Below, one piece after another: positions 43,306-47,675 of a DNA stretch of 64,000 bases. The DNA lies in assembly GCA_018970395.1 (NCBI GenBank), contig JAGWWM010000001.1, positions 1 through 64,000 of the forward strand. The letters run 5' to 3'. The position numbers and the translations under genes are program-made. The first letter of the stretch is position 1. Each line of letters begins with the position of its first letter. Under the pieces are notes generated by a model, which was not told the DNA's origin, searched no databases, and was given only the letters and a program-made list of their open reading frames with translations. This stretch comes from Bacteroidota bacterium (GTDB taxonomy: Bacteria; Bacteroidota; Bacteroidia; Chitinophagales; Chitinophagaceae).

Positions 43306-44172
43306 ATGTCTTCCCACCCAAACTCCCCCACCCATTGGGATCTTGAAATAAAACCCCAATCTTCTCTCTTCGATTTGAATCTGAGAGAAGTGTGGCGGTA
43401 CCGGGATCTGATGATGTTGTTTGTGAAGCGGGATTTTGTGGCGCAGTATAAGCAGACGATACTTGGGCCGTTATGGCATCTCATTCAACCGCTATTTACC
43501 ACGATTGTGTTTCTGATGGTGTTTGGCAATATTGCAGGCATTCCGACCGATGGCGTTCCGCCCGTGTTGTTTTATATGAGTGGCATTACTATCTGGAATT
43601 ATTTTAGTTCCTGTTTGACGAATACATCTAATACTTTCGTGGCCAATGCAGGCATTTTTGGAAAAGTGTATTTTCCCCGTTTAGTAATTCCGGTATCAGT
43701 GGTGTTGTCAAATATCGTGCGGTTGGGCATACAGTTTGGGTTGTTATTGGGAGTGATGGTGTTTTATTGGATAAGAGGGGAGGCGCAGGTTCATATTGGA
43801 CTATCCTGGATGTTGTTGCCCTTGCTGGTATTGTTGATGGCCGGTATAGGTTTAGGAGTAGGCATTATCATTTCATCGCTCACCACCAAGTACCGCGATT
43901 TTACTGTGTTGATTGGATTTGCCGTGCAATTGCTGATGTATGCAACACCCGTAGCGTATCCCTTATCATTTTTGAAAAGTAAAAATTTTGCCTATCTCAT
44001 CGAATGGAATCCTTTAAGTGCCGTAGTCGAAGGCTTTCGTTATGCTTTGTTTGGCGTGACCAGTTTTGATATGTCATCATTAATATATCCGTCGGTGTTC
44101 ATGGTAGTCGTGTTATTCATCGGCACGATGATATTCAGTAAGGTGGAGAGGACGTTTATGGATACAGTGTAA
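43306..44172 (+). CDS. ABC transporter permease for polysaccharide export (Wzm-like)
   Basis: ABC-2 type: LFVKRDFVAQYKQTILGPLWHLIQPLFTTIVFLMVFGNIAGIPTDGVPPVLFYMSGITIWNYF. Confidence 0.94.
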   Translation: MSSHPNSPTHWDLEIKPQSSLFDLNLREVWRYRDLMMLFVKRDFVAQYKQTILGPLWHLIQPLFTTIVFLMVFGNIAGIPTDGVPPVLFYMSGITIWNYFSSCLTNTSNTFVANAGIFGKVYFPRLVIPVSVVLSNIVRLGIQFGLLLGVMVFYWIRGEAQVHIGLSWMLLPLLVLLMAGIGLGVGIIISSLTTKYRDFTVLIGFAVQLLMYATPVAYPLSFLKSKNFAYLIEWNPLSAVVEGFRYALFGVTSFDMSSLIYPSVFMVVVLFIGTMIFSKVERTFMDTV

Positions 44173-44203
44173 ACTCAAAGGTCAAAAGTCAAAACCAAAA
44201 AAA

Positions 44204-44469
44204 CGCATCAACGCATAAACGAATCAACAAATCAACATAAAATTGCCTTCCATCATCATCCATACCTCACCCGTCAATATTCAAAAAGAAAGAATATTGC
44301 GCCAGAGAGCCAAAACGCCAGAGCAGCGATTTTATGAATTATTACGACTGAATGAATTAGCCCTGAAATTATCAGGAAGAAAATTTTTACGAGAACCGCA
44401 GGGGAAGGGGATTGTGTTAGTAAAGAAAAAATAATGTTCGGAGGGTTGATTCGTTGATGCGTTGATTCG
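44204..44469. repeat. 25-bp inverted repeats (23/25) flanking a small ORF
   Basis: CGCATCAACGCATAAACGAATCAAC (44204-44228) versus reverse complement of GTTGATTCGTTGATGCGTTGATTCG (44445-44469). Confidence 0.8.
44243..44434 (+). CDS. small hypothetical protein (63 aa)
   Basis: TTG-start ORF, conserved-looking RQRAKTPEQRFYELLRLNELALKLSGRKF; no family recognised. Confidence 0.4.
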   Translation: MPSIIIHTSPVNIQKERILRQRAKTPEQRFYELLRLNELALKLSGRKFLREPQGKGIVLVKKK

Positions 44470-44500
44470 TTCAGTCGGGGAATAGTTTAGATGTTTAGGC
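44445..44500. repeat. 56-bp direct repeat, left copy, bracketing vapBC
   Basis: 48/56 identical by eye to 45327-45382. Confidence 0.8.
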
Positions 44501-44627
44501 AGATAATTTATGAGCAATAAATAACCTACAACCTACAACATCCAACCTACAACCGCCAATAACGCCACAATGATGACAGTGTACCTCCACAAGAATTAAT
44601 TCATTAAATTTGGATAAAAATAGTGAT

Positions 44628-44849
44628 ATGAACACCGCGCAATTAGAAAAAAAATTACTAGAACATACCAAAAACCTTTCTAAGGAAGCTTTAAGGGAAG
44701 TGATTGACTTCGTTCGCTTTTTGCAGCATAAAATGGCGCGCCAATCATCTGATTATATTAATATTGAAACATCTTCCCTAAATAAATCACAAATTGTCCA
44801 TTTAGAAGAGGAATTCGAAGATTACAAAAAACTATATCCTCGTGAATAA
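44628..44849 (+). CDS. putative VapB-type antitoxin
   Basis: Short ORF immediately upstream of, and overlapping, a PIN-domain toxin. Preceded by TAAATTTG at 44605. Start set at ATG 44628. Confidence 0.75.
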   Translation: MNTAQLEKKLLEHTKNLSKEALREVIDFVRFLQHKMARQSSDYINIETSSLNKSQIVHLEEEFEDYKKLYPRE

Positions 44850-45234
44850 ATATGTAGCCGACACGATGGCCTTTATTCTCAGGTTAGAGAAAAGAAAAAT
44901 GCCACATGAAATCAAGTCAATATTTATACAGGCAGAAAATGGTTTAGCTGAAATCAGAGTTCCTGCTATTGTATTTGCTGAGTTGGGTTATCTTTCAGAG
45001 AAAGGTAAAATTGATATCAACTTGAATGATGCACATGAATATTTAGAAATGAATCAGAGTATATCAGTACATCCTTTATCGTTTGAAGTAATAGAATATG
45101 CATTTAGAATTGATGATATTCCTGAGCTGCACGATCGTCTGATTGCTGCTACGGCGAAGGCGTTTAATGTGCCTATTTTAACAAACGATTCCGATATAAA
45201 AAAATCATTACATGTCGAAGCGTTTTGGGAATAG
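44842..45234 (+). CDS. PIN-domain toxin (VapC-like)
   Basis: GTG start overlapping the antitoxin; PIN acidic residues in KYVADTMAF, IVFAELGYL, LHDRLIAATAKAFNVPILTNDSDI. Confidence 0.9.
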   Translation: MNKYVADTMAFILRLEKRKMPHEIKSIFIQAENGLAEIRVPAIVFAELGYLSEKGKIDINLNDAHEYLEMNQSISVHPLSFEVIEYAFRIDDIPELHDRLIAATAKAFNVPILTNDSDIKKSLHVEAFWE

Positions 45235-45326
45235 CTAAGATTTTGGATAAAGTATTTAATATAATGTTTTTCGCTTTTTTATTTGATCTGTCAATTCTAA
45301 CCCATATCTCATATTAGAACCAAAAG

Positions 45327-45382
45327 GTTAATTCGTTGATACGTTTATTCGTTGATTCGGGCAATGGTTTAGATGTTTAGGC
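45327..45382. repeat. 56-bp direct repeat, right copy, bracketing vapBC
   Basis: GTTAATTCGTTGATACGTTTATTCGTTGATTCGGGCAATGGTTTAGATGTTTAGGC. Confidence 0.8.
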
Positions 45383-45514
45383 GTTAAGTTGTTTAGTCGG
45401 AAGAAATAATCGCCACCTAAACGATTCTACCTCTAAACCCTAAACGACTATACGACTAAACGCCTCAACAAATCAACAAATCAACCCTATACCCCTAAAC
45501 CTCTCAACTTCCTC

Positions 45515-45805
45515 ATGCTCGAAAACCTCTCCCCCCGCCTCTTTTGGGATGTCAATCCCCACCTGCTGGATTGGGAAAAAGACATGCCCCTGATTATTAC
45601 AAGGGTAGCTGAAAGGGGAACCCTGGAAGAGTGGAGAACCATTGTGCGCAAATATGGTATGGATAAAATTGTTGCTGTTGCGAAGGAAGTCAGATCCATG
45701 GATTTGCTGGCAGTCAATTTTATTGCTCAGATTTCCGGCACACCCATTACAGAATTCAGATGTTACAATACCAGACAGTTGAGCCAGCGACACTGGATTT
45801 ATTGA
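45515..45805 (+). CDS. hypothetical protein (DUF6922-like, antitoxin-partner type)
   Basis: MLENLSPRLFWDVNPHLLDWEKDMPLIITRVAERGTLEEWRTIVRKYG; overlaps the start of an AbiEii-like ORF. Confidence 0.65.
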   Translation: MLENLSPRLFWDVNPHLLDWEKDMPLIITRVAERGTLEEWRTIVRKYGMDKIVAVAKEVRSMDLLAVNFIAQISGTPITEFRCYNTRQLSQRHWIY

Positions 45806-45957
45806 AAAATATATCCGGTCAACCTTTGTTTGCGGACCATAGATTGGTAGGTGGTACCGCATTAGCCCACTTTTTTAAAGTGTATAACGTAGTTTATAAG
45901 ATATTTTTTAAAAAATTAGGGGGCTGTCCGGTTAAAAATAAAAATGAATACTTTTAA
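45760..45957 (+). pseudogene. truncated AbiEii/AbiGii-type nucleotidyltransferase
   Basis: MLQYQTVEPATLDLLKNISGQPLFADHRLVGGTALAHFF resembles the N-terminus of AbiEii-type proteins; the ORF degenerates after about 40 aa. Confidence 0.65.
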
Positions 45958-45984
45958 AACAAAAATTAATTCTTTTGATAATTG

Positions 45985-46075
45985 ATTATTTCACGCAAAG
46001 CTGCAAAGAGGAAAATCTCCTAAAGAACATCATGTTGAGCGATAGCGAATTTATCCCGAGAATCGGGAACATCTC
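45985..46075 (-). repeat. dispersed intergenic repeat, copy C
   Basis: TATTTCACGCAAAGCTGCAAAGAG...CATGTTGAGCGATAGCGAA...ACATCTC is the reverse complement of the pattern in copies A and B. Confidence 0.6.
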
Positions 46076-46198
46076 ATAATTCGAAGCGCTCTCAAAACAG
46101 GAGATCCTTCGCTTAAGCTCATCATGACGCTACCGAAATGTGTGGCGCTGGCAAGGCAGAACGCGCGGAGCGATCGGGTCTGCCTAGATTTTTCTTTG

Positions 46199-46233
46199 GT
46201 TACTTTCTTTGTAGCAATGACAAAGAAAGTAAC
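46199..46233. repeat. perfect 13-bp stem hairpin
   Basis: GTTACTTTCTTTG-TAGCAATGA-CAAAGAAAGTAAC. Confidence 0.85.
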
Positions 46234-46418
46234 AATAAAAATTCAGGAGCAAGAATCCTGTTGAAGAACGAAAAAGATCCTAAAAAAGGTATAAAAATAT
46301 TTAATCGGACAGCGATGCCTCTAAATCCTAAACCCCTCAATCCGCCTGCAGCGCCAGATACGGGCGGACAAGCGACTAAACGCCTCAACAAATAAACGAA
46401 TCAACAAATAAACATCCA

Positions 46419-47675
46419 TTGAGCACTGTAATCAAAGTCGAAAACCTCTCCAAACAATACCGTCTTGGCACAGTAGGCACCGGAGCGCTTGCTCATGATA
46501 TCAATCGCTGGTGGCACAGAGTGAGAGGCAAGGAAGATCCCTATATAAAAATTGGGGAGACCAATGACCGCGCCACTTCAGGAAGCAGTGAATATGTATG
46601 GGCATTAAAGGATATCAACTTCGAAGTGAAGCATGGCGAGGTGCTGGGTATTATCGGACGTAACGGAGCGGGTAAATCTACCTTATTAAAAATATTAAGT
46701 CGTACCACTGCGCCCACTACCGGCAGCGTGAAGATCAAAGGAAGAGTGGCGAGTTTGCTGGAAGTAGGCACCGGTTTTCATCCTGAGTTAAGCGGCAGAG
46801 AAAATATCTTTTTGAATGGTGCTATTCTCGGCATGACCAAAAAAGAAATTGCTGCAAAGTTTGATGAAATCGTGGACTTTGCCGGCGTGGAAAGATATAT
46901 TGATACGCCGGTGAAGCGCTACAGCAGTGGAATGTATGTTCGCCTTGCTTTTGCCGTGGCCGCACATTTAGAACCGGAAATTCTGATTGTGGATGAAGTG
47001 CTGGCGGTCGGGGATGCGGAGTTTCAAAAGAAGTGCTTGGGTAAGATGAAGGATGTGAGTGAGAAGGATGGAAGGACGGTTTTGTTTGTGAGTCATAATA
47101 TGGCGGCTGTAGCTAACCTTTGTAATAAAGGATTGGTGATGAGTAATGGCTTACTTGAATATAGCGGCACAGTTGATGAAGCGGTAAAGTATTATATGCA
47201 AAAGAGTGTGGTGAGCGGATGTCACTATGTTAATCAACAACCCGGTAATGCAGATAAAATCAAAGAAGTGAAAATGGTTCGTGATGCAAAGAAAGACAGC
47301 GAGTCCTTTCTTTTTAATGAACCTTTGCGCATCCAAATCAATGCACAACTGCCCTCATCTGTAGAAGGTACACATATTGGTGTGGCAGTGCTTGATAAAT
47401 GGCATCACAAAATATTTACTAATACCTACAGAATTACTGCACAACAATTGACAACTGGTAAGGTGTTTGTAGAAATGCAAATACCTGCAGCAACATTACT
47501 TGACGGTGTTTATTTTATGGATGTTGCATTGTTTGTTCCACGCATGAATAATTTCGATTATGTAGCAGATGCCTGCACATTTGAAATTGAAGATCTCAAT
47601 TCTGAACTTTCATTATTCAGCGGTGCTGATATTGGAAATGTAATGGTTAAATGTAACTGGAAAGAGTTGGCATGA
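46419..47675 (+). CDS. ABC transporter ATP-binding protein for polysaccharide export (Wzt-like, with C-terminal domain)
   Basis: Walker A GIIGRNGAGKSTLLKIL, signature YSSGMYVRLAFAVA, Walker B ILIVDEVLAVGD; about 170-aa C-terminal extension typical of Wzt. Confidence 0.95.
   Translation: MSTVIKVENLSKQYRLGTVGTGALAHDINRWWHRVRGKEDPYIKIGETNDRATSGSSEYVWALKDINFEVKHGEVLGIIGRNGAGKSTLLKILSRTTAPTTGSVKIKGRVASLLEVGTGFHPELSGRENIFLNGAILGMTKKEIAAKFDEIVDFAGVERYIDTPVKRYSSGMYVRLAFAVAAHLEPEILIVDEVLAVGDAEFQKKCLGKMKDVSEKDGRTVLFVSHNMAAVANLCNKGLVMSNGLLEYSGTVDEAVKYYMQKSVVSGCHYVNQQPGNADKIKEVKMVRDAKKDSESFLFNEPLRIQINAQLPSSVEGTHIGVAVLDKWHHKIFTNTYRITAQQLTTGKVFVEMQIPAATLLDGVYFMDVALFVPRMNNFDYVADACTFEIEDLNSELSLFSGADIGNVMVKCNWKELA

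Follow-up and report, generated by a model that had tools for sequence, protein, structure and literature searches.

Accessory gene modules and gene-edge octamer repeats in the Wzm-Wzt spacer of a Chitinophagaceae genome

The Wzm-like permease gene and the Wzt-like ATPase gene found in the analyzed stretch of Chitinophagaceae DNA (64,000 nucleotides, referred to as the window) are intact and co-directional and lie 2,246 nt apart. The interval between them, the island, contains small accessory genes and arrays of short tandem repeats. The reading that we favor, and regard as fairly likely, is that a tolerant operon spacer collected accessory modules, which are exchanged via ordinary recombination between repeats dispersed at gene edges. 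Three unrelated modules, namely the 63-aa ORF, the VapBC-like pair and a decayed DUF6922-AbiEii pair with a MITE-like element, would have gathered between the two exporter genes. The repeats would represent a genome-specific family of 8-bp period that lines gene edges, rather than recombinase sites delivered by the modules. If this is true, the island shows how small toxin-antitoxin (TA) and orphan genes sit in conserved operons without breaking them, and recombination between gene-edge repeats would be a turnover route that needs no dedicated integrase.

The exporter domains PF01061, PF00005 and PF14524 all scored above their cut-offs, as expected for a Wzm/Wzt polysaccharide ABC exporter. 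Close proximity of the Wzm and Wzt genes is usual, not essential. An initial annotation of this DNA had placed the permease and ATPase genes 2.2 kb apart, with a 63-aa ORF, a VapBC-like pair and DUF6922/AbiEii genes between them, and both its coordinates and its gene calls hold (Table 1). Profile searches with the 63-aa ORF matched no family. The VapB-like protein stayed below both cut-offs, reaching 24.5 bits with DUF2281 (cut-off 26.5) and 18 bits with the NCBIfam VapB model (cut-off 60). Its ORF shares 8 nt with that of the VapC-like protein, one of two PIN proteins encoded in the genome. The pair resembles VapBC modules in that a PIN toxin has a small upstream partner; here, the VapB match is sub-threshold. 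In the same way, the order of DUF6922 and AbiEii is that of AbiE (AbiEii) modules, but AbiEii is cut short. The remnant aligned over 36 residues with the N-terminus of a 208-aa AbiEii relative (locus L191; 47% identity, tblastn) and the remainder is missing. The truncation claimed for this gene is real, and an intact AbiEii nucleotidyltransferase of the AbiE type IV TA kind is not present, as 36 of about 208 residues are left. The toxin-antitoxin function of the island modules is putative.

PADLOC found no defence system among the island proteins, with a single marginal match of 13.9 bits, and a search of the window against Rfam returned nothing. The island ORFs include neither a recombinase or integron integrase gene nor a PF05635 (23S_rRNA_IVP) gene; the four PF05635 copies of the genome are located elsewhere. 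Just past the AbiEii remnant, we found an element that had been overlooked in the initial annotation. It has the terminal inverted repeats and the many non-coding copies of a MITE: its segments occur as dozens of partial copies in the genome and account for many of 72 genome-wide matches. Pieces of it also adjoin a DUF4160-DUF2442 pair on contig C68.

Table 1. Features of the Wzm-Wzt region. Positions refer to the window.
Feature	Position	Strand	Remarks
Wzm-like ABC-2 permease	43306-44172	+	PF01061, 67 bits
Octamer array A	44201-44238	+ (AC strand on +)	ends 5 nt upstream of 63-aa ORF; left copy of outer direct repeat
63-aa ORF, TTG start	44243-44434	+	without family match
Array block B1	44444-44500	- (GT strand on +)	left copy of the 57-nt direct repeat flanking VapBC
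Heptamer CCTACAA array	44523-44552	+	C14 and C29 carry nearly identical blocks
VapB-like antitoxin	44631-44849	+	weak DUF2281/VapB match, below both cut-offs
VapC-like PIN-domain protein	44842-45234	+	PF01850, 42.5 bits, above cut-off
Array block B2	45326-45397	- (GT strand on +)	right copy of the 57-nt direct repeat; forms left arm of predicted intergenic hairpin
AC-rich arrays up to DUF6922 start	45416-45510	+	right arm of predicted hairpin (z = -2.0)
DUF6922 protein	45515-45805	+	PF21956, 72 bits
AbiEii remnant	45760-45957	+	homology limited to first 36 residues (to about 45867)
MITE-like interspersed element	45923-46313	.	17-nt terminal inverted repeat GCTGTCCGRTTAAA, 15/17 matching
Octamer array C	46376-46415	+	ends 3 nt upstream of ATPase start; right copy of outer direct repeat
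Wzt-like ATPase with Wzt_C domain, TTG start	46419-47675	+	PF00005 (ABC_tran) 81.5 bits, PF14524 45 bits

The repeats of the island are tandem octamers with the approximate consensus [A/C][A/C]T[C/A]AAC[G/A], represented by units such as AATCAACA, CATCAACG, ACTAAACG and CCTCAACA. The outermost copies (44201-44238 and 46378-46415) form a direct repeat with 89% identity over 38 nt, and the VapBC-like pair is flanked by a 57-nt direct repeat with 88% identity (44444-44500 and 45326-45382). A long hairpin was predicted for the spacer between the VapC-like and DUF6922 genes (z = -2.0). Array orientation in the island is mixed: the AC strand lies on the plus strand at 44201, 45456 and 46376 and on the minus strand at 44443 and 45325/45365. 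Because the arrays differ in orientation, the proposal that each cassette is bounded by the same repeat family applies only loosely. The arrays on either side of the 63-aa ORF (44207+ and 44443-), in particular, have opposite orientations, an arrangement that simple direct-repeat capture would not lead one to expect.

To place the arrays in their genomic context, we searched the home genome (2.42 Mb in 74 contigs, approx. 90% coding; the window is part of contig C1). A sample of 463 kb, consisting of the window and 399 kb of stretches chosen regardless of arrays, contained seven arrays of at least three units. Six of these belong to the island, and the 399 kb contributed the seventh. Such arrays did not occur in four Markov shuffles. 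Genome-wide, a 19-nt pattern matched 57 times (reversed-pattern control: 0) and a broader octamer pattern 81 times in about 40 places, nearly all intergenic (control: 0). The related AC-rich repeats described in the initial annotation are thus real and not due to chance. With approx. 43 arrays per 2.42 Mb, the island is about 150-fold denser in arrays than the genome average. Dispersed, short, intergenic and present in many copies, the units make up an intergenic short tandem repeat family resembling the short tandemly repeated repetitive (STRR) sequences. A description of the octamer repeat was not found in the open-licence literature.

The arrays are oriented with respect to genes. At 32 of 43 arrays the AC strand points into the gene edge closest to it, be it start or stop (binomial p approx. 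0.001, based on mechanical ORF calls). The AC-rich strand leads up to the start codon or, equivalently, the GT-rich strand leads away from the stop codon. Several exceptions arise from ORF-calling artefacts, among them window arrays A and C, which end immediately before the 63-aa ORF and the ATPase gene, respectively. Base skew at gene edges was considered as a trivial cause of this polarity. The upstream GC skew was -0.22 (C over G); since the downstream skew was close to zero, skew alone is insufficient to account for both edges. Roughly half of the arrays adjoin ordinary housekeeping genes such as secY, lgt, ald, mazG and a phosphomannomutase gene. Found beside such genes and in about 43 places of the genome, the repeat is not cassette-specific. 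The polarity rule alone makes any gene look 'bounded'. Moreover, distant arrays have exact unit orders in common, over 40 nt at C4:20037 and C4:20900 and over 31 nt on C3 and C57 (CTAAACCCCTAAACCTCTAAACGACTCAACG).

It had been suggested to ask whether other copies of the repeat also lie at TA or defence cassettes. In the genome-wide search, array clusters were found around several TA-like or orphan modules. The cluster at C4:17-21 kb (L172, 17000-21000) comprises four arrays of the same orientation around an HTH gene, DUF1016, a zeta toxin pair and DUF433-DUF5615, the last of which lies between the arrays that have 40 identical nt in common. This repeat-lined island is larger than that of the window and has a bacilliredoxin-like gene on one side and a collagen-repeat gene on the other. 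Three same-orientation arrays accompany two ORF6N genes at C27:25-28 kb, and two accompany AAA_14/DUF4143 and a HigBA-like pair at C21:22-23.5 kb. AAA_14 and DUF2442 genes are found in a cluster on C3, and the DUF4160-DUF2442 pair on C68 lies between two same-orientation arrays. All five clusters resemble the window island. The common orientation inside a cluster could also be explained by gene orientation together with the edge rule. In three accessory families (PIN 1/2, ORF6N 2/3, AAA_14 3/10), 6 of 15 genes adjoin an array, compared with a rough expectation of 0.6 of 15 that supposes uniform placement and ignores spacer length and local gene content; the choice of these families was made once arrays had already been noticed beside them. 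The third ORF6N gene of the genome (10337-11096) has a two-unit array 205 nt upstream.

Comparison with relatives revealed that the position of the island is recurrently occupied. Among 94 related Bacteroidota operons in which both genes could be placed, the median Wzm-Wzt spacer was 43 nt. In 20 of these operons, it exceeded 300 nt and was filled with unrelated genes, so that the Wzm-Wzt spacer can be considered a recurrent landing site. Accumulation of accessory genes at this site, as proposed initially, is borne out by these operons. The long spacers held sugar-biosynthesis and glycosyltransferase genes, single 23S_rRNA_IVP four-helix-bundle genes or genes of an AlbA-like ATPase type (assigned by eye). 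At locus L154, the spacer holds an intact DUF6922-AbiEii pair, and this kind of pair reached the position there independently of the window island. Polysaccharide export loci seem to host DUF6922 modules repeatedly. In a Draconibacterium record (L114), a Wzt-like gene has three DUF6922 copies within 13 kb. In other genomes, the gap contains different genes, and repeats are different or absent there.

The repeat itself has a patchy distribution. None of 13 same-genus genomes contained the octamer pattern, which rules out a genus trait. It was detected in 21 of 394 genomes of the family, mostly with one or two matches; G161 and G214 had 30 and nine, respectively. These two genomes (L290-L298) belong to unrelated genera of the family, while the genus mates of the window are devoid of the octamer. 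A mechanical count in the other octamer-bearing genomes gave 11 arrays pointing toward and 10 pointing away from the gene edge. Carriage of the repeats by the DUF6922-AbiEii pair was also ruled out. On inspection, 12 DUF6922 loci in sister genomes had no repeats, and the eight loci with a usable partner showed no pairing of flanks (1,512 of 5,000 permutations were as good). Since sister-genome DUF6922 loci are repeat-free, the modules do not carry the repeats.

Taken as substrates for homologous or short-repeat recombination, the copies of 38-57 nt with 88-100% identity, mostly direct around modules, could mediate module turnover. Being dispersed, of this length, similar and mostly direct, they could allow the gain, duplication and loss of neighboring modules. 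An exchange between the outer copies by recombination would reduce the permease-ATPase distance to 69 nt. This calculated single-copy spacer compares with 61-113 nt in six same-genus relatives (L076-L081). The gene-edge repeat probably serves ordinary recombination. Recombination may be the route of gain and loss, and read-through transcription across the island may continue.

An alternative, which we regard as unlikely, is that the island belongs to hairpin-bracketed spacers resembling intervening sequences (IVS). Inverted short-word repeats at gene edges would form an RNA stem that brackets an empty loop or an orphan gene and may insulate it or process it out of polycistronic mRNA. IVS are known from 16S and 23S rRNA genes, where a stem that RNase III cleaves encloses an S23 ORF (PMC4990558). 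PF05635 genes offer a parallel. They number 1-16 per genome in the genus genomes G000-G013 (L224-L253), and most of those sampled lie between operon genes, for instance before argD, hisC, purE, leuB-like or ruvX genes (names by eye). Their flanks are complementary in a site-specific manner: duplexes formed by own flanks had a mean of -48.8 kcal/mol compared with -34.0 (sd 1.2) in 5,000 permuted pairings, whereas ordinary small genes showed a much smaller effect (-36.4 vs -33.3). For seven 23S_rRNA_IVP inserts in Wzm-Wzt spacers, 43 of 5,000 permutations were as good. In the hisD-hisC spacer (L300-L313), a PF05635 gene is present in three of 14 genomes and a different hairpin-like repeat in four others; in G006 and G013, this spacer shows arm-like repeats but no gene (by eye). 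The polarity, GT out and AC in, is the same, and the predicted hairpin between the VapC-like and DUF6922 genes fits as well. The window island, however, holds no complementary repeats around an S23/IVP gene: it lacks a 23S_rRNA_IVP gene, its outer arrays are direct instead of inverted, and DUF6922 modules at the eight loci elsewhere are armless.

The likeness between PF05635 genes in operon spacers and the rRNA IVS with their S23 ORF (PMC4990558) consists of an orphan ORF, complementary flanks and a tolerated insertion; the window island differs from the latter in that it has no S23 gene and that its outer repeats are for the most part direct. The operon-spacer PF05635 genes are candidate mRNA-borne intervening sequences. 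If confirmed, PF05635 genes in complementary-flanked spacers of biosynthetic operons would extend IVS elements from rRNA toward mRNA, a directly testable idea. IVS-like elements in Bacteroidota operons were not found described in open-licence papers. Very tentatively, spacers of Bacteroidota operons might have a sequence-independent architecture of polar short-word repeats (GT out, AC in), an RNA stem and a loop that acts as landing site for orphan genes. The window island would then be a multi-occupied case, in which the arms have turned into a genome-wide recombination repeat family.

In integron cassette arrays, small accessory genes are arranged in series with repeats between them, and the island shares this appearance. 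The proposal that the octamer arrays are sites of an unseen recombinase inserting TA cassettes, in an integron-like or other site-specific manner, draws on the clusters at TA-like modules in at least six loci, mostly of the same orientation. We consider it improbable. About half of the arrays lie next to housekeeping genes, and DUF6922-AbiEii pairs of sister species are array-free. The core consensus of attC sites is RYYYAAC. Read from the sequence, most units do not fit this core, ACTCAAC being the only one that does. Furthermore, the arrays differ in length and in the order of their units and have neither a fixed core nor a crossover point, so that an attC-type site does not accompany each cassette. 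The lack of attC-like core or structure, the absence of a recombinase gene within the island and the repeats at housekeeping genes distinguish the island from integron arrays. An integrase-type mechanism or an integron-like array is unsupported; the repeats are a genome-wide gene-edge decoration, dense around accessory modules. Of the initial interpretation, the recurrent landing site and the clustering of arrays at TA-like modules stand, whereas the cassette-specific repeat and integron-like capture do not.

Low-complexity, lineage-specific and almost exclusively intergenic tandem units, which recur sporadically in unrelated genera, would also be expected of passive filler grown by replication slippage in relaxed spacers, where accessory genes use the same permissive sites and the arrays have no role, but this is hardly likely because the non-random edge polarity and the long exact unit orders in distant arrays (C3 and C57) point to copying rather than independent slippage. 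The STRR sequences of cyanobacteria are short intergenic tandem repeats with 7-bp units, dispersed and lineage-specific. The repeats described here share these features with them; they differ by 8-bp AC/GT units, their occurrence in Chitinophagaceae, a fixed gene-edge polarity and a high density at TA-like modules.
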